A stretch of 48,543 nt of DNA from Betaproteobacteria bacterium (GTDB lineage Bacteria; Pseudomonadota; Gammaproteobacteria; Burkholderiales; Burkholderiaceae_C). The stretch lies in the NCBI GenBank assembly GCA_025358155.1, contig JANYKR010000062.1, forward strand, positions 1-48,543. Reading direction: 5' to 3'. The translations under genes were made by a program, and so were the position numbers. Below, in pieces: positions 429 to 36,075 of this stretch (position 1 is the stretch's first letter; each line of letters opens with the position of its first letter). The notes below the pieces were generated by a model. That model had not been told where the DNA came from, ran no database searches, and saw nothing but the letters and a program-made list of their open reading frames with translations.

Positions 429-3209
429 TCAGGCCAATTTCTGGAGCAAGGTCGTCACTTCAGCGTGCTTGCGGAACTTGGTGCCCAGCTTGGCCAGGGT
501 CTCCAGTTCGATCTTGGCGCCGGGCTTGTCGCCTGACAGCATCAAGAGCCGCGCCAGATTGAAGCGGATGTTGGGGTCTGTGGGTGCAAGGCCCAACGCC
601 TTCTGAGACATGGCGATGGCGGCCTTGAGGTCACCTTCGTCGGCCAGCGCCATCGACAAGGTGTCGATCAAAGCGGGGTTGTCCGGCAACATGGCGCAGG
701 CTTTTTCTGCCAGCGCCCGACCGCCCGGCTTTTTCTGCAACAGGCGCAGATAAGCCATGTTGTTGAGGGCAAACGCGTTCTGGGGCTGAACGGCCAGCAC
801 TTTTTCGTAGCGGCTCTCGGCCAGCGCCAGTTGGCCTGCGGCCATCGCAGCGTCTCCCAGGTAGAACTGGAAACCGCTGTCTCGGGGGTGGTCCTTCATC
901 CATTGCTCAGCGAAGCGCTCGGCCGCAACGGCCTGCTTGGCAGCTTTCAAAGCCAGATGAGTGCGGCTGGGCAGGTTGCCCGCATTGTCCTTGCCCACGC
1001 CCTGCTGGTAGGCCGCTGCGGCGCGGTCCCAGTGACCTTGCTCGGCTTCGATATCGCCGGCAAAGGCGAAACCCACCGCGTCTCTGGGCAACTGCAACTG
1101 GATCGTCTTGGCGACATCCAGAGCGTCCTGCGGGCGTTTCAGGCTCAATGCAACCGACATCAACAAGCGTTGGGCTTCGGTCGAGCGGGGGTCGATTTCG
1201 AGCGCGCGCCGCAAGCTCAGCATCGCCACCACCGGGTTCTTGTTGGCGAGATGAACATTGGCGCTGTGGATGTGGGGCTGCGGTGACTTGGGGATCAGCG
1301 CGGCCAGTTTGCCGAAGGTGGCCAGGGCTTGATTGGGCTCGCCCGTCACCTGTTGGGCGCGGCCCAGCGCGTCAAGTACTTCGGGCGTACCCGGCATCGC
1401 AGACGCCGCTTGCTGGGCGGCGGACAAAGCGGCCTTGCCGTCATTGGCGGCCAGCAGATGGTCGACCAAGGCCACTCGGGCAGAGGCGTCTCCCGTGCTG
1501 GCCTTGATGGCAGCCTCGTAGACGGGCGTGACATCAGCACGTTTGGCGCCGCTCTGCAGTTGCAGCTCGGCCAGCGCCAGCGAGGCCTCGGTCCGGCGCG
1601 GATTGGCCTTGAGCACGTCCTCGAAGCGCTTTTGGGCCTCGGCGGGTTTCTTGTCGCGCAGGTCCAGGTTGGCCAGACCGGCGGCGGCGGCCACAAAGGC
1701 CGGGTCTTTCAGCAGAGCGGCCTCAAAATTTTTACGGGCCTCGGCAAACTCGCCGCGCTCAACCAGCACCCGTCCACGCAGGTTGCTGGGTGCCGGCGAA
1801 TCGGGGGTCTTTTGCGCCAGCACCTCGATGGCCTTGAGCGCAAGGTCGGTCTCTTTGCGCCGCAGCCGGGTGCTGATCAAGGCCAGGTCAGCCACCGTGC
1901 CCTTGTCGGTGGCCGCAATCGACTCCAGCGTGGTCAGCGCGGTCTGGTCCTCGCCCTTGGCAAACTGGGCCAAGGCCAGGGCCGTCTTGATCTTGGGGTC
2001 GTCGGGCCGGAGCTTGGCGGCGCGCACGTACAGGCCTTCAGCGGTGGCGCTCTCGCCCAGATTCAGGTAGACCTCGGCGGCTGTCTCCAGGGTGTCGGCG
2101 CTGCTGCCGCCGCGGTCGATGGACGACCGGATGACGCTCAGCGCCTTGGTCGGCTGGCCCATGCGCAGGTACACCTGGGCCAACAAGCGCCGCGGCAAGG
2201 CCAATTCTGGCGACAGGCTCATGGCCTTGCTGAGGTAGGTTTCGGCCTGTACCAGCCCCCCGCGCTGCAGCTCGGTCATGCCGGCGAGCTGCAACACCGA
2301 AAGATTCTCTGGAAAGCCCCGAAGCAGCATCAGGCAGACGTCGCGCGACTTGCCCAGATCGTTGCTCAGGAAGGCGAGTTGGGCCTCAAAGAGCTTGGTC
2401 TGGGGATGCTGGGGCAGCACCTTGCGCATGGCTTCAATTTGTGCCGTCGCGCCCTTGATGTCGCGCTGGTGCAGCGCAATGGCAACCAGCGAGCCTTGGG
2501 CCTGCGCATTGCGCGGGCTGATCGCCACCACTTTGCGGTAGGCCTCAGCTGCGCCTGGGATGTCGTTCTTGGCAAACATCCGCAAGTCACCCAGAAACTG
2601 CCATGCGTTTGCACTGCCGGGGTCCATTGCGACCAGGGCATTCAACTTGGCCAAACCGGTCTCGGCGTCGCCGCCCGAAACCAGCAGTTTGGCCTCCAGC
2701 AGCAGTGTCTCGGTGTGTTGGGGTGCAGTGACCTTGACGGCCTCGACAATTTTTCGCGCCTGCTCCTTCTGGTTGAGCATCGCGTAGGCGGTGCCCACCA
2801 ACGCCCTCAAATCGTTGTTGGCCTTGGGGTCGGTGAGCTGAAGTTGCCCAAACTCATCCACCACCTTGCGGTATTTGAGCCGCGCGCTGAGCGCTCTGGC
2901 CAGCGCCGGTGCAACCTCGTCTGGCGAGTAATTGACATCCCTGGCCCGGCGCAGCTCGATTTCGGCCTCGGCCGGTGCACCTTGGTCAATCAGCAGCAAG
3001 CCCAGCAGGTAGCGGGCCTCGCCAGACTCTGGCTTGGCCTGGAGAATGCTCTTGATTTGGAGAAAGGCCGATGTGGCGTCGCCCTGGGCGCGAAATTTGC
3101 GTGCCGAGGCCATTCGCTCGGTTTCGCTGGTGGTTGCCGTGCAGCCTGCCAGCACAAGGGCCACCAGGCAGGCGCCAGCAATGCGGCGCAAAGGGTGGTC
3201 AGGCTTCAT
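429..3209 (-). CDS. prsT: PEP-CTERM system TPR-repeat lipoprotein PrsT
   Basis: A 926-residue protein made almost entirely of tetratricopeptide repeats, behind a lipoprotein signal peptide: basic N-terminus, hydrophobic stretch, and lipobox Leu20-Ala-Gly-Cys23. Repeats run from about residue 30 to the C-terminus, visible as recurring A-LA/Y-LG helices with DP or NP turns. Length and architecture match the PrsT family, found specifically with exosortase A / PEP-CTERM loci. The family's biochemical role is not established; a lipid-anchored TPR scaffold for the export or sorting machinery is the usual guess. The gene is on the minus strand, divergent from the PEP-CTERM gene across a 495-bp regulatory gap. 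The ATG at 3209 places the signal peptide correctly. No frameshift or internal decay is visible. Confidence 0.92.
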   Translation of the reverse strand: MKPDHPLRRIAGACLVALVLAGCTATTSETERMASARKFRAQGDATSAFLQIKSILQAKPESGEARYLLGLLLIDQGAPAEAEIELRRARDVNYSPDEVAPALARALSARLKYRKVVDEFGQLQLTDPKANNDLRALVGTAYAMLNQKEQARKIVEAVKVTAPQHTETLLLEAKLLVSGGDAETGLAKLNALVAMDPGSANAWQFLGDLRMFAKNDIPGAAEAYRKVVAISPRNAQAQGSLVAIALHQRDIKGATAQIEAMRKVLPQHPQTKLFEAQLAFLSNDLGKSRDVCLMLLRGFPENLSVLQLAGMTELQRGGLVQAETYLSKAMSLSPELALPRRLLAQVYLRMGQPTKALSVIRSSIDRGGSSADTLETAAEVYLNLGESATAEGLYVRAAKLRPDDPKIKTALALAQFAKGEDQTALTTLESIAATDKGTVADLALISTRLRRKETDLALKAIEVLAQKTPDSPAPSNLRGRVLVERGEFAEARKNFEAALLKDPAFVAAAAGLANLDLRDKKPAEAQKRFEDVLKANPRRTEASLALAELQLQSGAKRADVTPVYEAAIKASTGDASARVALVDHLLAANDGKAALSAAQQAASAMPGTPEVLDALGRAQQVTGEPNQALATFGKLAALIPKSPQPHIHSANVHLANKNPVVAMLSLRRALEIDPRSTEAQRLLMSVALSLKRPQDALDVAKTIQLQLPRDAVGFAFAGDIEAEQGHWDRAAAAYQQGVGKDNAGNLPSRTHLALKAAKQAVAAERFAEQWMKDHPRDSGFQFYLGDAAMAAGQLALAESRYEKVLAVQPQNAFALNNMAYLRLLQKKPGGRALAEKACAMLPDNPALIDTLSMALADEGDLKAAIAMSQKALGLAPTDPNIRFNLARLLMLSGDKPGAKIELETLAKLGTKFRKHAEVTTLLQKLA

Positions 3210-3613: not shown

Positions 3614-3632
3614 TTGGCACGAGACATGCTTT
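3614..3632 (+). promoter_or_regulatory. Sigma-54 (RpoN) promoter of the PEP-CTERM gene
   Basis: TTGGCACG-AGAC-ATGCTTT matches the -24/-12 consensus TGGCACG-N4-TTGC at all but one position. The invariant GG (3616-3617) and GC (3628-3629) are separated by exactly 10 nt, as required. A start near 3641 would leave a leader of about 64 nt before the ATG at 3705. RpoN-dependent expression of PEP-CTERM genes through PrsK/PrsR is known in related bacteria, which fits. Confidence 0.82.
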
Positions 3633-3704: not shown

Positions 3705-4661
3705 ATGAAACGCTTCATCCCCCTGCTGACCGCACTTGCGCTGGCGATCCCATTGGCGGCTCAAGCCACCATCACCTTCAAGTTTGATCCCGATGGCACG
3801 GGCGGCGCCTTCTCGCCGATGGACATCGACGCGATCGACCAGGCCCCGGGCGGTGCCCTGTCGGTGGGTGGCAACCCGGTCGGCGGCATCGACTTGGGCC
3901 AAACCACCAAGTTGCTGTTCCAAGCCAACATGCAGGCCTTCACCAACAACAGCAGTATCGTGTTTGCCAACGGTACTGGCGGCATCAGGTTCACCACGGT
4001 AGCGGGTTTCACCGAAGTAGTGACCGGTATCAACAGCAACGCTAGCGGCACCACCGTGAATTTTGGTCTGGGCAGCACCAACGCGCAGTCAGCCGACAAC
4101 TTCTTCTACATCTACCGCGTACCGGCACTGGCTAACGCGCTGGCCGGCACGGGGTTCGTGAACAACGCGGCCAACCGGATCATGTCGGGTCATATTTCGT
4201 TCGTGGACAGCAGCCAGTTCACGGCCAACAACAGGGCGCCGGTCCCTCTGGATCAGTTCGGCGCCAACAACTGGGTTGGTACCCGGACCATCATCGGTTC
4301 AGGCGCAACATCGCTGATCCTGACGATCGACAGCGTCAACGCTGACTACTTCCCGGACATCAACACGAACACCCAGCTCACGCTGGGCTTCGTCAACACC
4401 AGCCTGGTTGACCCGTTCCGTCAAGTTGACCCTTCGCGCCGGTTCAGCACCGACGGCATCGCCAACGGCGACAAAGTCACGAATGTGGGTCCGGTCAACG
4501 GGTTCAACAGCAACGCAGCGGGTACTTCGCCGCTGGACTTCATCTTCCAGGCCGATGCCAACATGTCGCTCGACATCCCTGAGCCGGGCTCCCTGGCGCT
4601 GGCTGGTCTGGCACTGGCCGGTCTGGGCCTGTTGTCGCGTCGTCGGCAAGCTGCCAAATAA
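3705..4661 (+). CDS. PEP-CTERM sorting domain protein
   Basis: A 318-residue exported protein and probable exosortase A substrate. It has an N-terminal Sec signal peptide (MKRF, hydrophobic core, AQA cleavage site near residue 21) and a beta-rich, Asn/Gly/Thr-rich body with few charges and no cysteine. At the C-terminus is a textbook PEP-CTERM tripartite signal: Pro-Glu-Pro at 292-294, an Ala/Leu/Gly transmembrane helix, then an RRR cluster just before the end. XrtA is expected to cut near the PEP motif and release or transfer the body towards the cell surface. The body matches no enzyme I recognise; similar proteins have been linked to floc and biofilm formation. AGGA at 3694 is spaced 7 nt from the ATG. 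It has its own sigma-54 promoter and terminator, so it is monocistronic. Confidence 0.93.
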   Translation: MKRFIPLLTALALAIPLAAQATITFKFDPDGTGGAFSPMDIDAIDQAPGGALSVGGNPVGGIDLGQTTKLLFQANMQAFTNNSSIVFANGTGGIRFTTVAGFTEVVTGINSNASGTTVNFGLGSTNAQSADNFFYIYRVPALANALAGTGFVNNAANRIMSGHISFVDSSQFTANNRAPVPLDQFGANNWVGTRTIIGSGATSLILTIDSVNADYFPDINTNTQLTLGFVNTSLVDPFRQVDPSRRFSTDGIANGDKVTNVGPVNGFNSNAAGTSPLDFIFQADANMSLDIPEPGSLALAGLALAGLGLLSRRRQAAK

Positions 4662-4684
4662 TTCGGGTCAAACCTGAATCAAAA

Positions 4685-4706
4685 CAAGGGGCCTTCGGGC
4701 CCCTTG
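4685..4706. terminator. Bidirectional intrinsic terminator
   Basis: A perfect 9-bp stem CAAGGGGCC / GGCCCCTTG closed by a TTCG tetraloop. On the plus strand it is followed by CTTCGTTTTG; on the minus strand the stem is followed by TTTTGATT. It therefore serves both the PEP-CTERM gene, 24 nt upstream, and the convergent GMC oxidoreductase gene ending at 4728. Confidence 0.9.
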
Positions 4707-4727
4707 CTTCGTTTTGATAGGGTGGCT

Positions 4728-6401
4728 TCAGGCGGTCAGGTGATTGGCGACGCGCATAGCGTTGGCGGCGATCGTCAAACTTGGGTTGGTGCCGCCGCTG
4801 GACGGGAAAAACGATGCGTCAACCGCAAACAGGTTGTCCAGCCCATGCGCCCGGTTGTTGAGGTTCAGCACGCTGTTGGCGGCTGAGTTGCCAAAACGCA
4901 AGGTGCCGCAGACATGCGCCAGCCGCTGGTTGTTGTCGGCCTGCTTGAGCAAGCGCACCGGCAAGGGCCGCAGGCGGGCTGCGATCAGTTTGCGCAGCGT
5001 GGCCACGCGTTGGCGCTGGCCTGGGGTCATGCGGTAGTGCAGGTGCAGGCCGTCTGGTTGGGTCGGGCTCAGCGTGACCCGGTTGTTGGCGTTGGGCAAA
5101 TCTTCGAGTGTGGCGGCCAAGATCATCGACTCTTGCGCCAGTTGCCTCAGCGTGGGTGCCAGCAAGGGCTCGGCGCAGCGCAGCAACGGCAGCAGTGCCG
5201 CCCACGGGCTGTGCGCCACATCGTCGAGCAGGGTTGCGAACAACATCTGCTGCGGCGGCAAACAGCCAAAGGATTGCACTGACCCGAGTTTGCCGGCAGT
5301 GCCAGCATAAAAGTCATTGAAGGCCAGCTGCTTCTGGCGGTTTTCATCCGCCAATGGGCGGGCGTCGTTGGGCAGCGTGAGCGCATGCAGGTCAATGCAA
5401 TGCCGCATCAGGTTGCGGCCCACCAGCCCTGAGCGGTTGGCCAGTCCGTCGGGCCAGGCCTCGCTGGCCGAGCGCAACAGCAGGGCGGATGATTGCATCG
5501 CGCCCGCTGCCAGTGCCACCGTGCGGGCGCGCAGCGTGCGCAGGTTGCCATCGGCTTGGCGGCAGACCACGCCTGTTACCTGCTGCTGCCGGGCTTCGAG
5601 TTTGACGACCGTGCAGTCGGCCAGCAATTGGGCGCCATGCTCGGTGACGGCTGGGAGCAGACAAATGCGCGCGCTGTCGTTTTTGCAAGCTTTTGGGCAG
5701 AGGTAGCCCTGGCAACCCTGGCAGCCGGGCAAGAACTCGCAGGCCATCGGCAGGCGGTAGGGATGAAGCCCGGTGGCGGACAGGTGCTGCGCCAGCCAAT
5801 CGGCGGCAGGGGTGAGTGCAGGTGGTGCGGGCAGGGTGCGCGGAGGGTCAAACCCGGCGCGCAGCGGATCGACCGTGCCCCGCACCCGGTACAGGGCTTC
5901 GGCCTGGCTGTACCAGGGCGCAAGCTCGGCATAGCTCAGCGGCCAGGCGGCAGGCAAACTGTTGTCGCTGTCCCCGGGATGCTGCCCGCGAGGCTCAAAG
6001 TCGGCCGGGAAAAACCGCTCCATGGCCATGCCGTACAGCGCGCTGGACCCGCCCGTCCCCGAGCCCACAAACGGCACGAATGAGCGGGTTTTGCGGCCGG
6101 AGACATCGTCGAGCAGGTCGGTGGCCCGGCCGGCCTGTCGCAGCAGTTGCTGGTCCGGCGCCAAGTGCCGGGCGATGGCGTTGGGCAGGTCCTCCTCGGG
6201 GTAGTGGCCGGTCAGCGCCGTGCCACCGCCGCCGGACTGATCCAGATGCGCCGCGCCCCGCTCACAAAACAGCACCTGCTGGCCGGCGCGGGCCATTGCA
6301 TAGCCAAAAGTGGCCCCGCCGATACCGGTGCCGATGACGATCACATCCCAGTGCTGGCCCGCTGCCTCGTCCAGCGTCAACCGGCCCGCCAGGCTGCTCA
6401 C
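4728..6401 (-). CDS. GMC family FAD-dependent oxidoreductase
   Basis: A 557-residue flavoprotein predicted to oxidise an alcohol group. The ADP-binding Rossmann motif is near residues 21-36 (VIGTGIGGATFGYAMA), and GSGTGGSSALYG is the usual second GMC signature. The C-terminal block HVCGTLRFG...VDASFFPSSGGTNPSLTIAANA carries the His and Asn positions of the active site. A cysteine cluster C-x2-C-x4-C-x3-C (CQGCQGYLCPKAC) resembles that of long-chain alcohol and cholesterol oxidase-like GMC proteins. There is no signal peptide, so it is presumably cytoplasmic. It is the last gene of a three-gene minus-strand operon; its GTG start overlaps the upstream nitroreductase stop (GTGA, 6398-6401). The substrate is unknown. 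The gene ends 22 bp from a shared terminator. Confidence 0.88.
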   Translation of the reverse strand: MSSLAGRLTLDEAAGQHWDVIVIGTGIGGATFGYAMARAGQQVLFCERGAAHLDQSGGGGTALTGHYPEEDLPNAIARHLAPDQQLLRQAGRATDLLDDVSGRKTRSFVPFVGSGTGGSSALYGMAMERFFPADFEPRGQHPGDSDNSLPAAWPLSYAELAPWYSQAEALYRVRGTVDPLRAGFDPPRTLPAPPALTPAADWLAQHLSATGLHPYRLPMACEFLPGCQGCQGYLCPKACKNDSARICLLPAVTEHGAQLLADCTVVKLEARQQQVTGVVCRQADGNLRTLRARTVALAAGAMQSSALLLRSASEAWPDGLANRSGLVGRNLMRHCIDLHALTLPNDARPLADENRQKQLAFNDFYAGTAGKLGSVQSFGCLPPQQMLFATLLDDVAHSPWAALLPLLRCAEPLLAPTLRQLAQESMILAATLEDLPNANNRVTLSPTQPDGLHLHYRMTPGQRQRVATLRKLIAARLRPLPVRLLKQADNNQRLAHVCGTLRFGNSAANSVLNLNNRAHGLDNLFAVDASFFPSSGGTNPSLTIAANAMRVANHLTA

Positions 6402-7486
6402 GGGGTGCGGACCGGGCGCGGCAGGCTCAACTCGCTGCGGGATAGGCGCACCGACCGTGAACTGGCCACTGGTGATTGGCCAATGCGGGCAATCCAGACG
6501 GCGCGCGGCAGGTCGCTGCCGATCAAGCGCTGGGTCTGGTCGGCCAATTGCCGGGCCAGCGCCCGGGCGGGTGCCGAGTCGCTGAACGGTCGGCCTTCCC
6601 GCACGTAGCGGGCAAAAATCAGCGGTGTCAGCTCAGGCTGGTGCTGCAGGCCCAAAGCGGTGGCAGTGAGCCACAGGCGTTGCACGACCCGCCCGGCATC
6701 GACGTAGTCGTCCAACTGGCTGGGGGCGCTGCCGCGCAACAGCACAAAATGGGCGCCACACAAGAGGCCGGGCAACAAATCCATCTGCAGCCTGGGAGCC
6801 CAGGTGCCAGCCAGCCATTTGTTCAAAAACTGCAGGCGAGCCCAGTCCTGCATGGCCCAGCGCATGAGCTTGAGGGTCAGCGCGTCGGCGCCCAAGGCCT
6901 GGTCTGGCACCCGGTCGGGGCTGAACCGGCGGCCCCAGTGGATGATGCTGCGGTGCACCTCAAACGCTTCGCGCAGGGTCAGCCGCAGCCCGGCGTTGTT
7001 GAACATCAGGCGCGCCATCTGCCACTTGGCCGTCAAGCCCTCGAACCAGCGCAACTCGTAGCCCGGGCCGAGGCTGGCCTCCAGCGTTTGCTTTTCGGCC
7101 GGGGTCAGGGCGCGGGCACTGTACGGGCGGCGCTGCACACTGCGCAGCGGTATGGCGCTGATCAAGGGGCTGGGCTGCAGGTCAGGGTCGGGTGTGAACC
7201 GCAGGTCGAAGGTTGGCAAAGTTTCGGGCAGCCCGCCGCGCCGACTCACTGACACCCGCAGGCCGTGCCCGCTCGCGGCGATAGCGATGGTCTCGATCAG
7301 CGCACCCAGCGATAGCTGGCTGGGGTGGCCGTCAAGGTCATAGACACAATGCGTGCGGGTGTCCGAGCCATGCACGACCAGATGTGTCGCGTCTTGCACC
7401 TCGAACCGCCATGGCTGGGTGTTGTCGCCGCTGGGCGCCCAACGCGCCAGATCGAGAATCGGGGCCATCACGCCAACGTCGCTCAT
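6398..7486 (-). CDS. Nitroreductase-family (Acg-like) protein
   Basis: A 362-residue protein with the nitroreductase-fold N-terminal signature RWAPSGDNTQPWRF near residues 15-28, which lines the FMN site. A later segment LSLGALIETIAIAASGHGL corresponds to the second FMN-contact helix, and RSVQRRPYSARALTP marks the start of a second nitroreductase-like repeat. The length, about twice that of classic nitroreductases, fits the duplicated Acg/MoeY-type subgroup. These proteins bind flavin, but a redox substrate is rarely known. The ATG overlaps the stop of the ThiF-like gene (ATGA, 7483-7486), and its own stop overlaps the GMC start, so all three proteins are likely made in fixed ratio. The tail after about residue 340 is Ser/Arg-rich and looks disordered. 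Confidence 0.8.
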   Translation of the reverse strand: MSDVGVMAPILDLARWAPSGDNTQPWRFEVQDATHLVVHGSDTRTHCVYDLDGHPSQLSLGALIETIAIAASGHGLRVSVSRRGGLPETLPTFDLRFTPDPDLQPSPLISAIPLRSVQRRPYSARALTPAEKQTLEASLGPGYELRWFEGLTAKWQMARLMFNNAGLRLTLREAFEVHRSIIHWGRRFSPDRVPDQALGADALTLKLMRWAMQDWARLQFLNKWLAGTWAPRLQMDLLPGLLCGAHFVLLRGSAPSQLDDYVDAGRVVQRLWLTATALGLQHQPELTPLIFARYVREGRPFSDSAPARALARQLADQTQRLIGSDLPRAVWIARIGQSPVASSRSVRLSRSELSLPRPVRTP

Positions 7487-8361
7487 GCAGGCCTTGACAT
7501 CGCGTTGGCAAATTGCCGTCGGCCCATCGCCAAGGCCAGGCGCTGCATCGGGTGACGGTGGCCGCCGGGCCGCCAGGTTCGGGCCAAGCGGCCCAGGTAG
7601 GCATCAAACTGCATGCCGTGCGGCGCCCCTCGCACCGGGCCTCGGTGCAGCATCAACTTGAGGACTTCGGTGGCCACCACCCCGGCGCAAATCTGGCAGG
7701 CCATGCCGGTAGACGGCGTGCGGCGCTCGGCAAAATTGACCGCACTCGGGTCCACCATGTAACCCCGGTTCAGGCCTGCTGGCGCCAGGCCGATGACAAA
7801 ACGCAGGGCCTTTTCAGTCTCGGGCAGATCACCCCAGCCGAAATAGTCATCAAAGCTCATGCCGCCGGGCAAGAAGTTCAGCAAGGCCGCGCCCATGCCG
7901 ATCGGGGCAGCGGTGATCGCCGGGATGCCCAGTTCGGCGCAGGCCGCGAACACCGCTCGCCGCATGTCGAAAGCAAAAAAATCAAGACCATCCACGTAGA
8001 GATCGACGCCCGCCAGAAAGTCTCGCAGGTTGGCTGCGGTGACGCCCTCTGGAAAGGATTTGAGCCGGATCTCCGGGTTGATGTCCTGCGCCTGAGCCGC
8101 CATCACCTCGATTTTTGGCCGGCCCAGCGTGGACACCATCGCACCCGCTTGGCGGTTGAAATTCTGGACGTCGAAGCAGTCGAAGTCGGCGATGTGGAAG
8201 TTGGCTATGCCCAGGCGGCTGAGTGCCAGCAAGTGGACACCACCCACGCCGCCCATGCCGGCAATGGCAATGCGCTTGTGCCGCAGGATCTCTTGCTCAT
8301 GCTGGGCCAGCCAGCCGATGTTGCGAGAAAAGGCCAGCTCATAGCTGAATTCAGGGTGCAT
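7483..8361 (-). CDS. ThiF/MoeB/HesA-family adenylyltransferase
   Basis: A 292-residue E1-like protein. It has the family's N-terminal FSYELAFSRNIGW block, the nucleotide motif AIAGMGGVGG, then DFDCFDVQNFNRQ (Mg-ATP contact, Arg and Gln conserved), GRPKIEVM, and DGLDFFAFDMRR. Members adenylate a carboxylate, classically the C-terminal glycine of a ubiquitin-like sulfur carrier. Only one CxxC (ACQIC) is present and the second zinc-binding pair is missing, so the usual structural zinc is probably absent. No ubiquitin-like partner is encoded nearby. The ATG at 8361 gives the family-typical N-terminus; a GTG at 8442 would add 27 residues without better support. It is the first gene of the ThiF / nitroreductase / GMC operon. 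In mycobacterial MoeY the ThiF and nitroreductase domains are, to my recollection, fused in one chain. Confidence 0.85.
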   Translation of the reverse strand: MHPEFSYELAFSRNIGWLAQHEQEILRHKRIAIAGMGGVGGVHLLALSRLGIANFHIADFDCFDVQNFNRQAGAMVSTLGRPKIEVMAAQAQDINPEIRLKSFPEGVTAANLRDFLAGVDLYVDGLDFFAFDMRRAVFAACAELGIPAITAAPIGMGAALLNFLPGGMSFDDYFGWGDLPETEKALRFVIGLAPAGLNRGYMVDPSAVNFAERRTPSTGMACQICAGVVATEVLKLMLHRGPVRGAPHGMQFDAYLGRLARTWRPGGHRHPMQRLALAMGRRQFANAMSRPA

Positions 8362-8727: not shown

Positions 8728-9363
8728 GTGAAAGCATCGACCGCACTCACCACCCGTCGTCTTCTCGCTAGCCTCTTGGCTTGTGCCGCAGCGGTCTTTG
8801 GCGCCGGCTGTGCCACCCAGTCCAACTACCCGCCCGCGCCTGCGCAGGCTGCGGTTGACGATTACACCTACCTTATCGGCGCAGGTGACCTGCTCAACAT
8901 CATTGTCTGGCGCAACCCCGAGTTGTCGATGTCGGTGCCGGTCCGGCCCGACGGCAAGCTCGCAGCACCGCTGGTCGAGGAAATCGTCGCTCAGGGCAAA
9001 ACCTCAACGCAGTTGGCGCGGGATGTCGAGAAGCAACTCGGCAAATATGTCCGGGATCCGGTTGTCACGGTATTGGTAACCGCCTTTGTAGGGCCGTACA
9101 GCGAGCAGATCCGGGTGATCGGAGAGGCGGCGCGGCCACAGTTTCTTAACTACAAAAAGAACATGACCTTGCTCGACGTGATGATTGCGGTCGGCGGCTT
9201 GACCGACTTTGCAGCCGGCAACAACGCCACCATTTTGCGCACCGGCGATGGCGGCAAACAATACGCCGTGCGTCTGAAAGACCTGGTCAAGCGGGGCGAC
9301 GTGTCGGCCAATGTCGAAATGCGACCGGGCGACATTCTGGTGATTCCGCAAAGCCTGTTTTGA
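8728..9363 (+). CDS. XrtA-type polysaccharide export lipoprotein (Wza-like)
   Basis: A 211-residue periplasmic/outer-membrane lipoprotein that would form the export channel for the exopolysaccharide. It has a lipoprotein signal peptide with Ala-Gly-Cys28; the -3 position is Gly, so the lipobox is slightly weak. The polysaccharide-export domain spans about 45-125 (YLIGAGDLLNIIVWRNPELS, RPDGKLAAPLVEEI, RDPVVTVLV). One SLBB domain lies at about 130-200, with the typical MTLLDVMIAVGGLTDFAAGNNA and RPGDILVIPQS. It is shorter than Escherichia coli Wza, as usual for the PEP-CTERM-associated family. The start is GTG 8728. It is the first gene of a long plus-strand series and sits 52 bp before its Wzc-like partner. 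Confidence 0.9.
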   Translation: MKASTALTTRRLLASLLACAAAVFGAGCATQSNYPPAPAQAAVDDYTYLIGAGDLLNIIVWRNPELSMSVPVRPDGKLAAPLVEEIVAQGKTSTQLARDVEKQLGKYVRDPVVTVLVTAFVGPYSEQIRVIGEAARPQFLNYKKNMTLLDVMIAVGGLTDFAAGNNATILRTGDGGKQYAVRLKDLVKRGDVSANVEMRPGDILVIPQSLF

Positions 9364-9415
9364 GCGGAAAGCTCGCTAAGCCAGGCAAGCCCCTACACCG
9401 ACCAAGACAAGCGCA

Positions 9416-11011
9416 ATGGAAGAGCTGATCAGCCAACTGACCTCGATCGCCCGGGGTATGTGGAAATTTCGCTGGGCCGGGCTGGCGGTGGCCTGGATGG
9501 TGGGTTTGCTGGGGGCAGCGGTGGCGTTCAAGATTCCGGACCGCTACGAGGCCATGGCCCGCATTTTTGTTGATACCCAGTCCATCCTCAAGCCTTTGAT
9601 GAATGGCCTGGCGGTGCAACCCAATGTGGACCAGCAGGTCACGATGCTCAGCCGCACGCTGATCAGTCGGCCTAATATTGAAAAACTCGTGCGAATGGCC
9701 GACCTCGACCTCAAGAGCGAATCCAAATCCCAGCAGGAAACCTTGATCGAGTACTTGATGAAGAACATCGAGATCAAGAGTACGGGTCGAGACAACCTCT
9801 ATTCGCTGACCTATGTCGACCCGGACAAGGACAAATCGAAGCGGGTGATTCAGTCGATGGTGTCTATTTTTGTCGAGTCCAGCCTGGGCGCCAGCCGCAA
9901 GGATACCGACTCGGCCAAGGTTTTTCTCGACGAGCAGATCAAGACCTACGAGTCCAAACTCGAAGAGGCTGAAACCCGCCTCAAGGACTTCCGGCTGCGC
10001 AACCTGGACATGCAGACCGGCGACGGCAAGGATTCGGCCACCCGCCTGAGCGAGATCGGCCAGCAACTCGAAACCGCCAAGCTGGAATTGCGCGAGGCCG
10101 AAAATGCCCGTGATGCCGCAAAGAAGCAGCTCGAAGGAGGCGGCGTTGCGGCTGCAGGCAACGGCGGGATGGACTTGCTGCAAGGCCCTGCTGGCGGCAG
10201 TGCACCGGTGAGCACGCCGGAGATTGACGCTCGCATCGAGGCCCAGAAGCGCAGTCTGGATGGTTTGTTGCAGCGCTACACCGAGCAGCACCCCGACATC
10301 GTCAGCGCCCGCCGCATGATCGCCGACCTGGAGACCCAGAAAAAGCGCGAGGTGGCCGAATTGCGCAAGGCTGCAGCGGCTGCGCCGGCCGTGGTGGTAT
10401 CGGGCAGCAACAGCAGCCTGGCGGTGCAGGAAATGACCAAGCTGATGGCGACTGCCGAGGTTCAGGTCGCGTCGCTCAAGGCGCGGGTGGGTGAGTACCA
10501 GTCACGCTATGCCCAGGCCCGTGCGCTGTCCCGGACTTCCCCCCAAATCGAAGCCGAAGCCGCTCAGCTCAACCGCGACTATGCGATCGTCAAGAAGAAC
10601 TACGAGGACCTGGTGTCGCGCCGGCAATCGGCGGTGATGTCGGGTGATTTGGACATGGCCTCCGGGGTGGTGGACTTCCGGCTGATTGACCCGCCGCGGG
10701 TTTCGCCCCGGCCGGTTTCGCCCAACCGGCTGCTGTTGCTGCCGGCGGCACTGGTGGTGGCGTTGGCGGCGGGTTTGTTCACCGCCTTTGCCGCCAGCCA
10801 GTTGCGGCCGGTCTACAACGACGCACAGGAGTTGCGGGTCAAGACCGGCCTGCCCTTGCTGGGTGTGGTTTCCCTCATCTTGGACGATAGTGAACGCAAG
10901 CGTGAAGGCGCCTACCGGATGCGGTTCTACCTCGGTTCGGGCGGCCTGCTGGCGTCGTATCTGGTTGCGATGCTGACCGTCTCGATTCTTGCCGCCAGGC
11001 AAGTGGGTTGA
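9416..11011 (+). CDS. XrtA-type polysaccharide chain-length determinant
   Basis: A 531-residue inner-membrane protein of the Wzz/Wzc class that controls polymer length and links to the export lipoprotein. The first transmembrane helix is at about 19-38, followed by the conserved post-helix strand YEAMARIFVDTQSILKPLMNG. A large periplasmic part with coiled coils lies at about 165-245 and 275-325. A proline-rich PPRVSPRPVSPNR segment precedes transmembrane helix 2 (about 440-462), and a further hydrophobic segment closes the C-terminus. A Gly/Ala-rich insert (EGGGVAAAGNGG) breaks the coiled coil. There is no kinase domain; that is supplied by the next gene, whose TTG or ATG start overlaps or follows the TGA within a few bases. 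Confidence 0.9.
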   Translation: MEELISQLTSIARGMWKFRWAGLAVAWMVGLLGAAVAFKIPDRYEAMARIFVDTQSILKPLMNGLAVQPNVDQQVTMLSRTLISRPNIEKLVRMADLDLKSESKSQQETLIEYLMKNIEIKSTGRDNLYSLTYVDPDKDKSKRVIQSMVSIFVESSLGASRKDTDSAKVFLDEQIKTYESKLEEAETRLKDFRLRNLDMQTGDGKDSATRLSEIGQQLETAKLELREAENARDAAKKQLEGGGVAAAGNGGMDLLQGPAGGSAPVSTPEIDARIEAQKRSLDGLLQRYTEQHPDIVSARRMIADLETQKKREVAELRKAAAAAPAVVVSGSNSSLAVQEMTKLMATAEVQVASLKARVGEYQSRYAQARALSRTSPQIEAEAAQLNRDYAIVKKNYEDLVSRRQSAVMSGDLDMASGVVDFRLIDPPRVSPRPVSPNRLLLLPAALVVALAAGLFTAFAASQLRPVYNDAQELRVKTGLPLLGVVSLILDDSERKREGAYRMRFYLGSGGLLASYLVAMLTVSILAARQVG

Positions 11012-11016
11012 ACAAC

Positions 11017-12030
11017 ATGAGCAGCTTGATTGAGCAGGCGGCAGAACGGCTGGCGCAAATCCGCCGAGCCGGTATCAGTTTGCCAGACCTGGAAGAGCGG
11101 CCGACCAGCCCGATAGCCGGCGACAGGGCTGCGCCATCCGAGGCAATCGCCCGCGATCTGGCGGTGCCGCCTCAAGCCCCGACCAAAGCCGAAGCCACCC
11201 TTGATCCGCTGCGATCATCGGCCGCGCTGTTGTCCAAGCCGATCGAGCTGGACCTGTTGGCGCTGGCTGCCGCTGGCTTTCTGGTGCCCTCGGCGCCGCG
11301 GTCGCACATGGCGGATCAGTTCCGGGTGATCAAGCGCCCGTTGATAGCCAACGCCACCCGCAAGGGTCAGGCCAAGCTGCACAACGCCAACCTGATCATG
11401 ATGACCAGCGCGATGCCGGACGAAGGCAAGAGCTTCACTGCGATCAACCTGGCCATGAGCATCGCCTCCGAGCTAGACCACACGGTGATGCTGGTAGACG
11501 CCGACGTGGCACGGCCCTCGTTGCTGAAAAAGCTGGGTCTGGGAGAGGCCCCGGGCCTGCTCGACCTGCTCGAAGGCAAGGCCGAAATGAGCGATGTCCT
11601 GATGCGTACCAACATCGACAAGCTCACCCTGCTGCCCAGCGGCCGGCCGCACCCCAAGTCCACCGAGTTGCTGGCCAGTGACGCGATGCGCCAGTTGTTG
11701 CAGGACATGGCCACGCGCTACCCGGACCGCATCATCATCTTTGACTCGCCGCCGCTGTTGCTCACCACCGAAGCCCGCGTGCTGGCCTCCCAGATGGGCC
11801 AGGTGGTGATGGTGGTGCACGCTGGCAAGACCTTGCAGGCCGATGTCCAGCATGCCTTGTCCACCATCGAGAGTTGCCCTATCCGGATGATGTTGTTGAA
11901 CAAGGCGCGTACCGACTCGCAGGGCGCTTATGGCTACGGCTACGGCTATGGCTACAGTTATGGCTACGGCGATGAGGCGACAGCTGCAGCGCCTCAAGAG
12001 GGGCCGTCCCATGGGACCAAGCCAGCATGA
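11017..12030 (+). CDS. XrtA-associated BY-type tyrosine autokinase
   Basis: A 337-residue cytoplasmic ATPase/tyrosine kinase that regulates the chain-length determinant by cycling its own phosphorylation. Walker A (SAMPDEGKS, Lys138) and Walker A' (VMLVDADVARPSL, Asp161/Asp163) are of the bacterial BY-kinase type, and a Walker B-like IIIFDSPPLLLT follows. The C-terminus carries a strikingly regular Gly-Tyr run with seven tyrosines, the expected autophosphorylation cluster. The N-terminal SSLIEQAAERLAQIRRAG matches the PEP-CTERM-linked subfamily. I prefer ATG 11017; a TTG at 11008 overlapping the previous stop would add three residues. The last 20 nt overlap the start of the next gene. Confidence 0.9.
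   Translation: MSSLIEQAAERLAQIRRAGISLPDLEERPTSPIAGDRAAPSEAIARDLAVPPQAPTKAEATLDPLRSSAALLSKPIELDLLALAAAGFLVPSAPRSHMADQFRVIKRPLIANATRKGQAKLHNANLIMMTSAMPDEGKSFTAINLAMSIASELDHTVMLVDADVARPSLLKKLGLGEAPGLLDLLEGKAEMSDVLMRTNIDKLTLLPSGRPHPKSTELLASDAMRQLLQDMATRYPDRIIIFDSPPLLLTTEARVLASQMGQVVMVVHAGKTLQADVQHALSTIESCPIRMMLLNKARTDSQGAYGYGYGYGYSYGYGDEATAAAPQEGPSHGTKPA
11929..11970 (+). repeat. In-gene hexamer repeat coding Gly-Tyr cluster
   Basis: Seven consecutive copies of a Tyr-Gly codon pair (TAY GGC, once TAY AGT) at the 3' end of the tyrosine kinase gene, encoding Tyr-Gly x4, Tyr-Ser, Tyr-Gly x2. Such short tandem units can gain or lose copies by slippage in whole codons, which would tune the number of phosphorylatable tyrosines without breaking the frame. 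Confidence 0.85.
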
Positions 12031-13612
12031 CGCAACTGGGCGCGGCGGCGGGGTGAGGGTGCGAGTGCGGTCGATTGGCGCCGTTCGGGCCCTGGGTGCG
12101 GCGCGCCCCAAGAGGCTGCCAGCGCTGTGCATGGTGGCGGCAGCTTGCCTGCAGCCTGCGGCCTGGTCCGCTGACATTGGCGATGGCGCGACCAGGCTCA
12201 TGGTGGTTCCCAGCCTGTCGGTTACCCAGACCGCCAGCGACAACTACCTGGTCACGGGGTTGAATCCGGCCTATGACCAGATTACCCGTCTGACGGCGGG
12301 TGTCGGCCTGCGCGCGCAAACCGGCGTCTTGAGGGGCTTCCTCGACTACTCGCTGTCGCAACTGGCTTACCTGCGTCACCGTGACCGCAACACGCTGCAA
12401 AATTTATTGAACGCTGACTTGAACGCGGATCTGGCCGAAGGCCGCGCCAAGATCGATGTGGCCGCCAGCATCTCCCAACAGGCTTTGTCGGCGTTTGCGG
12501 CCCAGCCTGGCAGCAGTGGACTGCCGCAGGCCAATTCCACCGAGGTCAGAACCCTGCGAATCAGCCCCGCCTTTCGCGGGCCGGTGGGCCCGGACATGCG
12601 CTACACCGCGCAACTTGGCTACAACCTGACCGATGCCAAAGCCTCGGCGGTGGGCGACTCCAACACCGCCTCGGCGCTTTTGCATCTTGAACCCTCGAAC
12701 AAGCCCAGGCTGGGCTGGGCAGTTGATGCCTCTCACCTGAGATCGGACTTCAAGACCGGGCGGGTGACCACCGATGACCGGCTCACCGGCGCTCTCAACC
12801 TGGGCGTACCCCTGCTCGACCTTGAGCTCAGTGCCAACGCCGGAGCCGAGCTCACCGATCTCGCGACGATCGAGCGCCAGCGCTACAGCAATTGGGGCGT
12901 GGGCGCGGTCTGGACGCCGTCGGCCGTGACCAAGTTGACGGCGCAGTTTGACCACCGTTTTTTTGGTGGCTCGCATGCCGTGGTTTTCGAGCACCGGACT
13001 CCGCAAACCATCTGGCGCCTCAGCGACTCGCGCAGCCTGTCCACCAGCGGCACCCAAAACAGCGGCGGGCAGGGCACGGCCTACGATTTGTTCTACCGGC
13101 AATTTGCATCGGTAGAGCCTGACCCGGTACGCCGCGCCGCGCTGGTCAATGCCTTCTTGGCCAGCCGCGGCATCGAGTCTGGCACCGAAGCCAGTTTTTT
13201 GAGATCGACCGCCACCTTGCAGCGCCGCCAAGAAGCCTCGGTGGCCTGGCGAGGCGTGCGCAGCACCGCCCTTTTAACCTTCACCCAGTCGCTCACCGAG
13301 CGGGTGGGCGCCGTGGTCAATGCGCGCGACGACTTGTCTCAGTCTTCGCGGGTGAAGCTGCGGGGCCTGTCGCTGGACCTGTCGCACCGCCTGACGCCGC
13401 TGTCGTCGGTGTCCCTGCTGCTCAATGCCCAGCAAGGTGACGGCAACCTGGCCAATCAGCACAACCGTCAGCGCCAGCTTGGCCTGACCTACAACCTGCG
13501 GCCACGCGCTGACAGCACACTGGTGCTTGGATTGCGGCGCGCGCTCTTCGAGACCGCCCTGTTGCCCTATGGCGAGACGGCCTTGTTTGCCACCTACGGC
13601 ATCCGGTTCTAG
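12011..13612 (+). CDS. PEP-CTERM-associated outer-membrane beta-barrel protein
   Basis: A 533-residue exported protein of the family linked to exosortase A loci. After a long basic N-terminal region, a hydrophobic stretch (LPALCMVAAACLQPAAWSA) ends with a signal-peptidase site near residue 53. The mature part alternates short amphipathic strands and ends in Phe (GIRF), the hallmark of outer-membrane beta-barrels; strands such as TQTASDNYLV and RAKIDVAASISQQAL recur. Its role is unknown; it may help pass polymer or PEP-CTERM proteins across the outer membrane. ATG 12011 is chosen because AAGAGGGG lies 7 nt before it; the frame is open further upstream inside the kinase gene, but that part would be a Met/Ala/Thr artefact of the Gly-Tyr repeat. 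Confidence 0.82.
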   Translation: MGPSQHDATGRGGGVRVRVRSIGAVRALGAARPKRLPALCMVAAACLQPAAWSADIGDGATRLMVVPSLSVTQTASDNYLVTGLNPAYDQITRLTAGVGLRAQTGVLRGFLDYSLSQLAYLRHRDRNTLQNLLNADLNADLAEGRAKIDVAASISQQALSAFAAQPGSSGLPQANSTEVRTLRISPAFRGPVGPDMRYTAQLGYNLTDAKASAVGDSNTASALLHLEPSNKPRLGWAVDASHLRSDFKTGRVTTDDRLTGALNLGVPLLDLELSANAGAELTDLATIERQRYSNWGVGAVWTPSAVTKLTAQFDHRFFGGSHAVVFEHRTPQTIWRLSDSRSLSTSGTQNSGGQGTAYDLFYRQFASVEPDPVRRAALVNAFLASRGIESGTEASFLRSTATLQRRQEASVAWRGVRSTALLTFTQSLTERVGAVVNARDDLSQSSRVKLRGLSLDLSHRLTPLSSVSLLLNAQQGDGNLANQHNRQRQLGLTYNLRPRADSTLVLGLRRALFETALLPYGETALFATYGIRF

Positions 13613-13615
13613 ACC

Positions 13616-14728
13616 ATGTACGAAGCGTTCTACGGGCTCAACAACAAGCCTTTCCAGCTCAACCCGGACCCGAGCTTTTACTTCGGCAGCAAGCAACACC
13701 GCCGCGCCAAGGCCTATCTCGACTACGGCGTGTCCCGCAACGAGGGATTCATCGTCATCACCGGCGAAATCGGTGCAGGCAAGACCACCTTGTTGCGCGC
13801 CCTGATCGAGGACCTGCACGGCAGCAACGTGGTGGTGGGGCACCTGGTGACCACCCAGCTGGGTGCAGAGGACACCTTGCGCATGGTGGGCGCGTCTTTT
13901 GGCTTCAAGGTCAAGGACGTGCCCAAGTCTGAATTGCTGATCACGCTGGAGGCGTTCTTGATCAGCCAGACCAGCAAGGGCAAACGCTGCCTGCTGATCG
14001 TTGATGAGGCGCAAAACCTGACGCCACGGGCGGTCGAAGAGCTGCGCATGCTGTCGAACTTCCAGTTTGGCAACCAGGCGCTGATGCAGAGCTTTTTGGT
14101 CGGCCAGCCCGAGTTCCGCGAGATCTTGCAGCGGCCCGAGATGGAGCAGTTCCGCCAGCGGGTTGCCGCCACCTGCCACATCGGCCCGCTTGATCTCGAC
14201 GAGACCCGGCACTACATCGAGCACCGGCTCAAGTGCGCCGGCTCAACCGGCAAGCCCAGCTTTGAGCCGGCAGCGTTCGAGGCCATCTTCAAGGCCAGTG
14301 GCGGCATTCCACGCCGCATCAACTCGGTTTGCGACCGGCTGTTGCTGGCGGGCTTTCTGGCCAACAAGGTGCATCTGGAATTGGCTGACGTCGATGAGGT
14401 GGTGCGTGAGTTCGCGCATGAAGCCGAGGTGCCGGTACGGCGTATCGCGGCGCCTCCCGACAGCGTGGCAGGTGAACTGGCCGCTGCCGGCCCGACCACC
14501 CATGCGGACGTGCTCGATGTGGATCTGGGCAAGCTGCAACTTGATCCGGCCGCTGCCGGCACGATGTCGCGACAGTTGAACCGCCTGGCCGGTGAGCAAC
14601 GCGGCGACCAGTTGCGGCGGGTTGAGCGCGGCCTGCTGCGGCTGGAGCGTACCAACCTGCAGTTGCTGGCGATGCTGCATCAATTGGTGAGCGCCGTGAA
14701 AAAACCGACTGACGAGGGCCCCAAGTGA
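13616..14728 (+). CDS. XrtA/PEP-CTERM-associated AAA ATPase
   Basis: A 370-residue P-loop ATPase of the ExeA/GspA-like group found in exosortase A loci. It begins MYEAFYGLNNKPFQLNPDP, the family's N-terminal signature. Walker A is GEIGAGKTT (Gly50-Thr58, Lys56) and Walker B is LLIVDEAQ (Asp130-Glu131), followed by a sensor region and the GGIPRRINSVCDRLLLAG box. The last 100 residues are less conserved and end in a helical stretch (LRRVERGLLRLERTNLQLLAMLHQL). It probably powers or regulates assembly of the envelope complex; the exact role is unknown. It starts 3 nt after the barrel gene, and its stop overlaps the GTG of the next gene (GTGA, 14725-14728). Confidence 0.9.
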   Translation: MYEAFYGLNNKPFQLNPDPSFYFGSKQHRRAKAYLDYGVSRNEGFIVITGEIGAGKTTLLRALIEDLHGSNVVVGHLVTTQLGAEDTLRMVGASFGFKVKDVPKSELLITLEAFLISQTSKGKRCLLIVDEAQNLTPRAVEELRMLSNFQFGNQALMQSFLVGQPEFREILQRPEMEQFRQRVAATCHIGPLDLDETRHYIEHRLKCAGSTGKPSFEPAAFEAIFKASGGIPRRINSVCDRLLLAGFLANKVHLELADVDEVVREFAHEAEVPVRRIAAPPDSVAGELAAAGPTTHADVLDVDLGKLQLDPAAAGTMSRQLNRLAGEQRGDQLRRVERGLLRLERTNLQLLAMLHQLVSAVKKPTDEGPK

Positions 14729-15906
14729 GCCTTGAACCCCATCCTGGCGCCGCAGCGCTTGAGCCCCGGCGTCGTGCGGGTCCGGTGATGTGCGTGGTGG
14801 GCGCCCGGCCCAATTTCATGAAGATGGCGCCGATCCTGCGCGCGCTCGCAGCGCACCAGCCACCCCTGGCGGCCCTGCTGGTGCACACCGGCCAGCACTA
14901 TGACCAGGGCATGAGCCACCAGCTGTTTGAAGACCTCGGCCTGCCCAGGCCCGACCTCAACCTGGAGGTGGGCTCAGGCAGCCACGCGGTACAGACCGCC
15001 GAGGTGATGCGCCGGTTCGAGCCTGCGCTCGATGCGCACCAGCCGGCCTGTGTGCTGGTGGTGGGCGATGTCAACTCCACGCTGGCCTGCACCCTGGTGG
15101 CGGTCAAGAAGGGGGTGCCGGTGGTGCACGTCGAGGCCGGCTTGCGCAGCTACGACCGCAAGATGCCCGAGGAGATCAACCGCGTGCTCACCGACCAGGT
15201 GGCTGATCGCCTCTACACCACCGAGCGCAGCGCACTCGACAACCTGCTGCGTGAAGGCATTGCGCCAGAGCGGGTATGTTTTGCCGGCAATGTGATGATC
15301 GACTCGCTGGTGGACAACCGGCCGCATGCCCGGCCGATCGCCGACACCCTGCGGGCCCATGGCATCGATCCGGCCTTGATTGCGCAGCCCCAGGGCTACG
15401 GCGTGGTCACCCTGCACCGTCCGTCCAACGTTGACGACGCCGAGACACTGCGTGGCCTGCTGGGCGTGCTGGGCGAGGTGGCGGCCCAGTTGCCGCTGGT
15501 GTTCGCCTTGCATCCGCGCACCCGCAACAACATCGAGCGCTTCGGCTTGGGCGGTTTGATCGACCCCCAGCGCATGGCCTTGTTGCCGCCCCAGGGTTAC
15601 CTGGAGATGCTGGGCCTGCTGCGCGACGCCACCTTGGTACTGACCGACTCGGGGGGACTGCAAGAAGAAACCACCGCGCTCGGCGTGCCCTGCCTGACGC
15701 TGCGCGAAAATACCGAACGCCCGATCACCGCTGAGCAAGGCACCAACACCCTGGTGGGCCGAGATGCGCAGGCTATCCGCAACGGCGTGGCCGAGATTCT
15801 GCGCGGCGACGGCAAGCGCGGCCGGGTGCCCGAGCTGTGGGACGGCCATGCCGCAGACCGCATCGCGGCCGATCTCTGGCAGTGGCTGGGCGCCGGCGCG
15901 CCTTGA
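14725..15906 (+). CDS. wecB: UDP-N-acetylglucosamine 2-epimerase (non-hydrolysing)
   Basis: A 393-residue cytoplasmic enzyme interconverting UDP-GlcNAc and UDP-ManNAc. Family motifs run in order: MCVVGARPNFMKMAP near the N-terminus, HTGQHYDQGMS, VVGDVNSTLA, HVEAGLRSYDRKMPEEINR, TLHRPSNVDD, DSGGLQEE and LRENTERP. These carry the conserved Asp, Glu and His residues of the active site. Length is normal after a short extra N-terminus. The product would supply ManNAc-type residues for the polymer. No ManNAc-specific dehydrogenase (WecC) is recognised nearby, although a TviB-type UDP-GlcNAc dehydrogenase is encoded 5 kb downstream. Confidence 0.94.
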   Translation: MSLEPHPGAAALEPRRRAGPVMCVVGARPNFMKMAPILRALAAHQPPLAALLVHTGQHYDQGMSHQLFEDLGLPRPDLNLEVGSGSHAVQTAEVMRRFEPALDAHQPACVLVVGDVNSTLACTLVAVKKGVPVVHVEAGLRSYDRKMPEEINRVLTDQVADRLYTTERSALDNLLREGIAPERVCFAGNVMIDSLVDNRPHARPIADTLRAHGIDPALIAQPQGYGVVTLHRPSNVDDAETLRGLLGVLGEVAAQLPLVFALHPRTRNNIERFGLGGLIDPQRMALLPPQGYLEMLGLLRDATLVLTDSGGLQEETTALGVPCLTLRENTERPITAEQGTNTLVGRDAQAIRNGVAEILRGDGKRGRVPELWDGHAADRIAADLWQWLGAGAP

Positions 15907-15971
15907 GCCGCTGAGCACCTGCCTGTCATCCCGCTGCGCTACAAACCCACCCACACTGACCTGGCCCCGAT

Positions 15972-16871: not shown

Positions 16872-16874
16872 GCC

Positions 16875-17912: not shown

Positions 17913-17938
17913 AGGCTGCATGCACAGATTGGTTGTCC

Positions 17939-34722: not shown

Positions 34723-34737
34723 TGCCAGATACCCACC

Positions 34738-36069: not shown

Positions 36070-36075
36070 CTACCC

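Follow-up and report, generated by a model that had tools for sequence, protein, structure and literature searches.

The genes described here lie in a contig of 48,543 nucleotides from a Betaproteobacteria bacterium (JANYKR010000062.1, assembly GCA_025358155.1), which was analyzed over its entire length and is called the window. Three overlapping genes at positions 4728 to 8361 encode a ThiF/E1-like protein, a flavoenzyme of the nitroreductase superfamily (NR) and a GMC-family oxidoreductase, and are embedded in an XrtA (exosortase A)/PEP-CTERM exopolysaccharide locus. ThiF and NR probably (at a rough probability of 0.8) together make up an oxazolone synthase acting on N-acyl amino acids. The family assignment and the linkage are well supported and the product is predicted. 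An initial annotation of the window had left the three-gene set without a known job in polysaccharide or PEP-CTERM biology, as a candidate undescribed system; for the ThiF-nitroreductase pair this does not hold, as the pair has the anatomy of OxzB, of TyzB plus TyzC, and of TrzS. The three genes are:

7483..8361, minus strand: ThiF/E1-like protein, 292 aa, PRK08223 family (NF006077), predicted ATP-dependent cyclase of N-acyl amino acids
6398..7486, minus strand: Acg-fold flavin-dependent oxidase of the nitroreductase superfamily (NR), 362 aa, predicted desaturase
4728..6401, minus strand: GMC-family FAD oxidoreductase, 557 aa, predicted tailoring alcohol/sugar oxidase

In the proposed pathway a FeeM-type N-acyl amino acid synthase (NAS), encoded elsewhere in the extended locus or genome, would make the N-acyl amino acid, and ThiF would adenylate its free carboxylate. 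Attack of the amide oxygen on the adenylate would give a 2-alkyl-oxazol-5(4H)-one, from which the Acg-type flavoenzyme, with O2, would remove two hydrogens to leave an alkylidene (dehydro-amino-acid) oxazolone. This compound may be the product, or hydrolysis may open its ring and yield an N-acyl dehydro-amino acid like kyonggic acid or the stieleriacines. GMC may act later in an FAD-dependent alcohol oxidation, perhaps of a sugar placed by a glycosyltransferase encoded on a neighbouring contig.

The cyclase and desaturase reactions have been shown in the literature for relatives of the two proteins. TyzA acylates L-Tyr, the ThiF protein TyzB cyclises the product with ATP and TyzC, of the nitroreductase superfamily, desaturates it with O2 (PMC10404671). 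Tryptazolones are made by TrzA and the fused ThiF-oxidase TrzS, which is Rv1355c; in TrzS the D217A exchange stops cyclisation and R540A impairs desaturation, and most ThiF nodes of two subclusters were reported to adjoin a gene for an oxidase, for an acyltransferase or for each of them (PMC12856293). Genes for NAS, ThiF and nitroreductase have also been described for Massilia kyonggiensis, Thalassotalea and Stieleria strains that produce N-acyl dehydro-amino acids, and a producer of saturated forms only had candidate clusters without ThiF and nitroreductase (PMC12479983). Alcoholysis and hydrolysis of tryptazolones have been reported (PMC12856293), and no oxazolone has so far been observed for the kyonggic, thalassotalic and stieleriacine compound families (PMC12479983). 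For the present genes, their homology, conserved sites and co-occurrence and a gene fusion were observed here, and we infer that this ThiF-NR pair carries out the same reactions. Any choice of amino acid and acyl chain, substrate of GMC or role in matrix or biofilm formation named in this text is presumptive.

The overlapping gene unit

The open reading frames confirmed that the three genes are joined by two four-nucleotide overlaps, as had been annotated: ATGA is common to the ThiF stop and the NR start, and GTGA to the NR stop and the GMC start. Their description as one unit was borne out to the extent that they form an overlapping gene unit in the window. The ThiF start was best placed at the ATG at 8361; an alternative longer frame reaches 8442. 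Eight pairwise gene comparisons with relatives (G356, a congener, and G046 for all three genes, G296 for ThiF and NR only) gave nonsynonymous divergence (dN) of 0.19-0.50 against synonymous divergence (dS) of 0.94-1.78, so that each of the three genes has a dN far lower than its dS. The NR/GMC overlap is present in G356 and the ThiF/NR overlap in G046; both together were seen in neither of these two relatives.

ThiF and nitroreductase proteins

ThiF matched Pfam ThiF at 1.2e-41 and exceeded the cut-off of NF006077 (PRK08223, named hypothetical) with 445 bits against 266. It also aligned over its full length to the fused families PRK14851 (315 bits) and PRK14852 (286 bits), in both cases below the cut-off set for the whole fusion. 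Models of canonical E1-like enzymes stayed below their cut-offs (adenyl_thiF, 87 bits against 275; MoeB NF004281, 72 against 266; TcdA likewise). The same genome encodes a MoeB of its own, which exceeds the NF004281 cut-off, together with a TcdA-like protein that stays below cut-off, and this ThiF is therefore not the housekeeping copy.

In an alignment of 16 ThiF sequences, which included the window and a fusion protein from Nitratidesulfovibrio, R13, G35-x-G37-G38, D61, R70, K83, D124 and D127 were invariant (16/16). These residues, which we take to be the E1 ATP site, suggest that the site looks intact. D124 and D127 both align with Asp residues of Escherichia coli ThiF, and either could be the equivalent of TrzS D217; the adenylation site of an oxazolone synthase, its Asp included, was thus found in ThiF. 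The earlier remark that no ubiquitin-like carrier is encoded remains valid, and a small molecule is the likelier substrate.

NR matched the nitroreductase Pfam family at 2e-8 and the Acg-family model NF047509 at E 2.2e-32, with 113 bits against a cut-off of 199. An AlphaFold2 model of all 362 residues had a pLDDT of 92.8 and, when searched with Foldseek, found Acg (2ymv) as its best match in PDB (E 1.6e-13; next best 2e-4). In this model NR is a double-length Acg fold, in agreement with its annotation as a double-length nitroreductase-like flavoprotein, and 2ymv is also the closest solved structure to the oxidase domain of TrzS (PMC12856293). NR also matched the Rv1355c-family model (E 2.5e-28, below cut-off); the resemblance to mycobacterial MoeY which had been noted for the ThiF-nitroreductase pair is a resemblance to Rv1355c, now TrzS. 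Invariant Arg and Gln residues of the NR alignment include R115, R119, R270 and Q283, among which equivalents of the oxidase residues R540 and Q651 of TrzS may lie.

Acyltransferase genes and a three-domain fusion

The genome from which the window derives has two FeeM genes, on contigs C254 and C180. On C180 (16.2 kb) FeeM stands in a row with EpsB (TIGR03013), PrsK, PrsR and a UGT-like glycosyltransferase. The same type of five-gene row lies on the ThiF contig, approximately 10-20 kb from ThiF, in G356 and G296; four of its five genes were found in the stretch examined on the ThiF contig of G143; and in G046 PrsR, PrsK, EpsB, the glycosyltransferase and a short FeeM share one contig, approximately 16 kb from ThiF-NR-GMC. 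Judged by this gene order, C180 would precede the left end of the window.

Plasmid pDVUL01 of Nitratidesulfovibrio vulgaris, whose host belongs to another phylum (Thermodesulfobacteriota) than that of the window, encodes FeeM (residues 43-198), ThiF (316-565) and nitroreductase (Pfam 609-638; Acg-family model 620-985) domains in one protein of 989 aa. Its gene sits between XrtA-associated and PEP-CTERM genes, and a sigma-54 regulator is encoded nearby.

The exosortase-associated acyltransferase TIGR03694 was rejected as a partner, the one match having 28 bits and being below cut-off; its frame is presumably OlsB-like. The long FeeM of the window's genome (483 aa; L038, 6770-8221) is extended at its C-terminus, where a weak PilZ match below cut-off (E 0.00056) hints at control by cyclic di-GMP, and FeeM matches in long frames of 430-490 aa recur among genomes of the family. 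On a Rhodococcus plasmid (L139, 3846-6729) a GNAT N-acyltransferase gene and a ThiF gene are parted by a transposase gene of the IS256 type; this may be a locus of the Trz/Tyz type that has been interrupted.

Distribution of ThiF with NR, FeeM and XrtA

Neighbourhoods were examined in three sets: named genomes (30 loci, of which L001 was dropped as it lay on the same contig as L071, leaving 29), 399 genomes of the window's family (63 ThiF loci counted besides the window) and 398 genomes of the phylum (ThiF in 16; 14 further loci examined). ThiF was called at E<=1e-40 in the family and E<=1e-50 in the phylum, and strong FeeM at E<=1e-20, a threshold of our choosing. The neighbour profiles were built from the same loci which they scan, again with thresholds of our choosing; Pfam FeeM was checked for L028 and L010. 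Some loci are on short contigs (e.g. L026, L045, L099, L100) where neighbours may be missed.

In the named loci NR lay within 300 bp of ThiF in 23 of 29. FeeM was found in the stretch of 20 loci, in 17 of them within 1 kb; 16 loci had two or more XrtA-locus families and 5 had GMC. Within the family ThiF occurred in 63/399 genomes and 37/141 genera. NR lay within 300 bp in 37 of the 63 family loci, 26 had FeeM in the stretch and 11 of these had it within 1 kb, 36 had at least two XrtA-locus families, and 51 had either FeeM or at least two such families. Among the 14 phylum loci there was at least one XrtA-locus family in 10, NR within 300 bp in 6 and FeeM in the stretch in 2. Compact NAS-ThiF-NR trios made up 13/29 named, 6/63 family and 1/14 phylum loci. 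The XrtA export gene was found within 1 kb of ThiF in 32/63 family loci, under 21 genus labels, so that the ThiF linkage to XrtA, which the initial annotation had proposed to check by co-occurrence, does recur.

XrtA over cut-off was present in 48/63 ThiF genomes compared to 54/336 of the others (Fisher 1e-20), and strong FeeM in 57/63 compared to 44/336 (Fisher 4e-34); both Fisher values ignore kinship among genomes and are therefore overstated. When one ThiF and one XrtA place were counted per genome, the two were on one contig in 37 of the 48 genomes with both, and 9-15 kb apart in 33 of these 37. FeeM was strong in 101/399 family genomes and over the family's own cut-off in 173/399. As 81 of the 102 XrtA genomes had strong FeeM, the XrtA-FeeM association is general, and ThiF joins a link that is already there.

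A number of observations weigh against the reading as an oxazolone synthase. By our profile, no NR was found within 300 bp of ThiF in 26/63 family loci, and ThiF can therefore stand without NR. Neither FeeM nor an XrtA-locus family was found in the stretch in 7/29 named, 10/63 family (one of them a contig of 3.5 kb) and 3/14 phylum loci; strong FeeM was absent from 6/63 ThiF genomes and XrtA over cut-off from 15/63. Beyond ThiF-NR, four of these named loci (L003, L005, L008 and L020) gave PEP-CTERM-protein-like and glycosyltransferase matches only. The window itself holds no NAS gene, and the join of C180 to it is one of synteny and not of assembly. The likeness to assayed proteins was judged solely by the model of the Rv1355c family, whose cut-off is reached by neither gene on its own.

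The four loci just named are Oxalobacteraceae-type with a UGT-like glycosyltransferase, no NAS or XrtA-locus gene was found within 10 kb, and L005 has a hexapeptide acyltransferase gene and a CstA gene. In twelve of the 63 family loci the export gene lay within 1 kb of ThiF and no NR was found within 300 bp (L079, L085, L088, L089, L091, L095, L098, L104, L116, L117, L124, L129); these are perhaps a cyclase-only version leading to saturated oxazolones, or have their oxidase farther off (L088, L104, L116). Two open reading frames beside lone ThiF genes were searched in Pfam for a hidden nitroreductase: one had no match and the other was a PEP-CTERM protein.

The GMC gene

The third protein exceeded the Pfam cut-offs of GMC_oxred_N and GMC_oxred_C (the latter at 1.2e-18), and its nearest solved relatives were FAD glucose and fructose dehydrogenases (E 7e-21 to 3e-17). 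The His of an AHVCGT-type motif and the Asn of GGTNPS were kept in 6/6 full-length sequences, window included, and align with the same residues of a sugar dehydrogenase; we assume that they are the C-terminal catalytic residues. The FAD domain, the C-terminal domain, the active-site His and the second His/Asn of a GMC oxidoreductase were therefore all found. A stretch with six Cys was conserved in the same six sequences. The AlphaFold2 model (pLDDT 54) was not used.

Relatives of GMC (E<=1e-60) occurred in 7/399 family genomes, compared to 63/399 for ThiF, and GMC was contiguous with ThiF-NR in 3/399, namely the window's genome, G356 and G046. GMC was thus ruled out as a constant third member. 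In G046 the order is ThiF-NR-GMC followed by a short-chain dehydrogenase (SDR). In L026 it is FeeM, a fused ThiF-NR, a glycosyltransferase and GMC, which is cut by the contig end. An SDR-GMC pair recurs in L010 (14486-16977), L017, L021, L030, L074 (5910-8447), L164 and L165, and resembles an oxidise-then-reduce pair such as DprE1/DprE2.

This distribution bears on a second account of GMC, which we regard as a serious possibility that falls somewhat short of even odds: the enzyme would serve the exopolysaccharide, oxidising and, with the SDR, re-reducing a sugar or lipid-linked sugar, and would share an operon with ThiF-NR only in this lineage. In its favor are the SDR directly beside GMC relatives in the seven loci above, of which L164 (G118) and L165 (G374) are outside the 63 ThiF genomes and L165 has an exosortase match 5 kb from GMC, as well as the sugar dehydrogenases as nearest solved relatives and the rarity of GMC relative to ThiF. 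Against it are the position of GMC directly after ThiF-NR in three genomes and after NAS, ThiF-NR and a glycosyltransferase in L026; furthermore, the window, G356, L026, L163 (G127) and L166 (G056) showed no such SDR next to GMC. Because of the gene overlap, tailoring of the acyl amino acid is slightly favored over matrix-sugar redox for the GMC of the window.

Surrounding XrtA/PEP-CTERM locus

Exosortase A, PrsT, a PEP-CTERM protein and polysaccharide genes were all found in the window, and PrsK and PrsR on C180, which identifies an XrtA/PEP-CTERM locus. As annotated, the three-gene unit lies between the PEP-CTERM gene and the export genes. The features are:

429..3209, minus strand: PrsT, XrtA/PEP-CTERM TPR lipoprotein (TIGR02917, 6e-198, over cut-off)
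3615..3630, plus strand: TGGCACGAGACATGCT, sigma-54-like promoter for the PEP-CTERM gene, differing from the search pattern at one position
3705..4661, plus strand: PEP-CTERM protein, flocculation-PepA-like, convergent neighbour (Pfam PEP-CTERM 1.6e-6, over cut-off; NF033554 1.1e-15, below cut-off)
4680..4716, no strand given: hairpin AAGGGGCC-TTCG-GGCCCCTT, read from the sequence and unscored; it separates the convergent genes for GMC and the PEP-CTERM protein and is likely a terminator common to both
8728..19528, plus strand: XrtA-locus core, nine named models over cut-off
8728-9363: XrtA export protein, first gene of the core
17909-19528: XrtA (exosortase A), last gene of the core

Between its first and last genes the core encodes a chain-length determinant, a tyrosine autokinase, the TIGR03016 outer membrane protein, an ATPase, a UDP-GlcNAc epimerase, a deacetylase and FemAB; downstream of XrtA are more XrtA-associated glycosyltransferases and amidotransferases. 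The sigma-54 pattern found nothing between ThiF and the export gene. Across the window it matched 37 times compared to a mean of 43 in shuffled sequences; the pattern is loose and in no excess over chance, and the site at 3615-3630 therefore rests on its position.

A small open reading frame at 8-379, before PrsT at the contig end, has 51% identity over 119 aa to its match in G356 and no NCBIfam match, and by eye is SRPBCC-like. More acyl chemistry is suggested for the right part of the locus (33307-43533), which encodes an AMP-binding enzyme, an alpha/beta hydrolase and a MaoC-SDR fusion, along with a protein whose FkbH_N match is below cut-off.

Other explanations for ThiF

A role of ThiF in adenylating protein C-termini, such as those which exosortase frees from PEP-CTERM proteins, with the flavoenzyme oxidising the tail, is very unlikely. 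It would be consistent with the E1 fold, the position beside the PEP-CTERM gene and the frequent XrtA linkage. Exosortase cleavage, however, is thought to take place outside the cytoplasm, where there is no ATP. ThiF is moreover fused to a small-molecule acyltransferase in Nitratidesulfovibrio and occurs in loci where no XrtA genes were found, and small molecules are the substrates of those relatives that have been assayed. Canonical activation of a sulphur carrier or of molybdopterin (ThiF, MoeB, MoeY) has the fold and ATP site in common with this protein but was rejected as extremely unlikely on the ThiF and MoeB models far below cut-off and the separate MoeB of the genome, Rv1355c itself having been reassigned to oxazolone synthesis (PMC12856293).

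Implications

For the preferred oxazolone synthase, the chemistry is already known, as are the link of NAS to PEP-CTERM genes and one cluster with all these parts, in which ThiF is unnamed. Craig in 2011 reportedly linked NAS to PEP-CTERM/exosortase. The reason for NAS in exosortase loci has been treated as open (PMC7293339, PMC11072679). In Methylomonas LW13, disruption of NAS abolished a distinct polysaccharide band and growth in a gradient system, with planktonic growth kept (PMC11072679), and the NAS product therefore matters there. For Stieleria maiorica, with PEP-CTERM and polysaccharide genes near the NAS cluster, a functional link and a cyclised intermediate have been proposed, and the double bond was assigned to the cluster oxidoreductase Mal15_37310 (PMC7293339), listed as a nitroreductase in PMC12479983. 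No paper was found which joins exosortase, ThiF and nitroreductase, a weak negative as most subscription papers were outside the search; one paper contains oxazolone and exosortase, each mentioned a single time. With the same reserve, the recurrent placement of ThiF, with or without NR, in XrtA loci and the addition of GMC were not found in print.

The present data suggest that the NAS pathway in XrtA loci often continues as far as an oxazolone or a dehydro-amino acid. A vague link between NAS and exosortase thereby becomes a concrete and testable chemical guess, and a possible extra tailoring oxidase is named.

Oxazolones are electrophiles which are ring-opened by nucleophiles. It is conceivable, although we think it quite unlikely, that the oxazolone is a built-in ligation reagent, a fatty-acyl azlactone which would acylate new matrix polymer or PEP-CTERM protein with or without a catalyst. 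The N-acyl (dehydro)amino acid put on the polymer or protein would then anchor the matrix to the cell surface, and GMC might create or tune the acceptor or donor. The polysaccharide deacetylase encoded in the XrtA locus bears on this, as it would expose amines. If true, it would explain the joint travel of acyltransferase, ThiF and XrtA.

Comparison with known systems

The NAS-PEP-CTERM link attributed to Craig 2011 has the same genomic setting of the acyltransferase step as here, and the available passages which cite it omit the cyclase and desaturase steps. The PRK14852 fusion of Nitratidesulfovibrio has the same three catalytic domains as the proposed pathway, inside an XrtA locus, but is a single chain named hypothetical in NCBIfam and, unlike in the window, no GMC was found in its 18.8 kb stretch.

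The clusters for kyonggic acid, thalassotalic acid and stieleriacine have NAS, ThiF and nitroreductase together, overlapping or less than 10 bp apart in two producers (PMC12479983, PMC7293339), and, unlike the window, hold NAS inside the cluster; a term search of the main text of PMC12479983 gave no mention of GMC, exosortase or PEP-CTERM. The cluster of Stieleria maiorica is like the window in having a PEP-CTERM gene within it and polysaccharide genes upstream (PMC7293339).

The Tyz cluster of Mycobacterium tuberculosis, which makes tyrazolones, has separate genes for the ThiF cyclase and flavin-dependent oxidase as in the window (PMC10404671); it differs in its nearby NAS and mmpL genes, and the available part of that paper leaves GMC and exosortase unmentioned. 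TrzS, like the window, combines a ThiF-like cyclase, with a conserved Asp in the adenylation motif, and an Acg-like flavin-dependent oxidase. TrzS is one fused chain with TrzA adjoining, whereas the window has two genes, NAS elsewhere, an added GMC gene and an XrtA locus around them.

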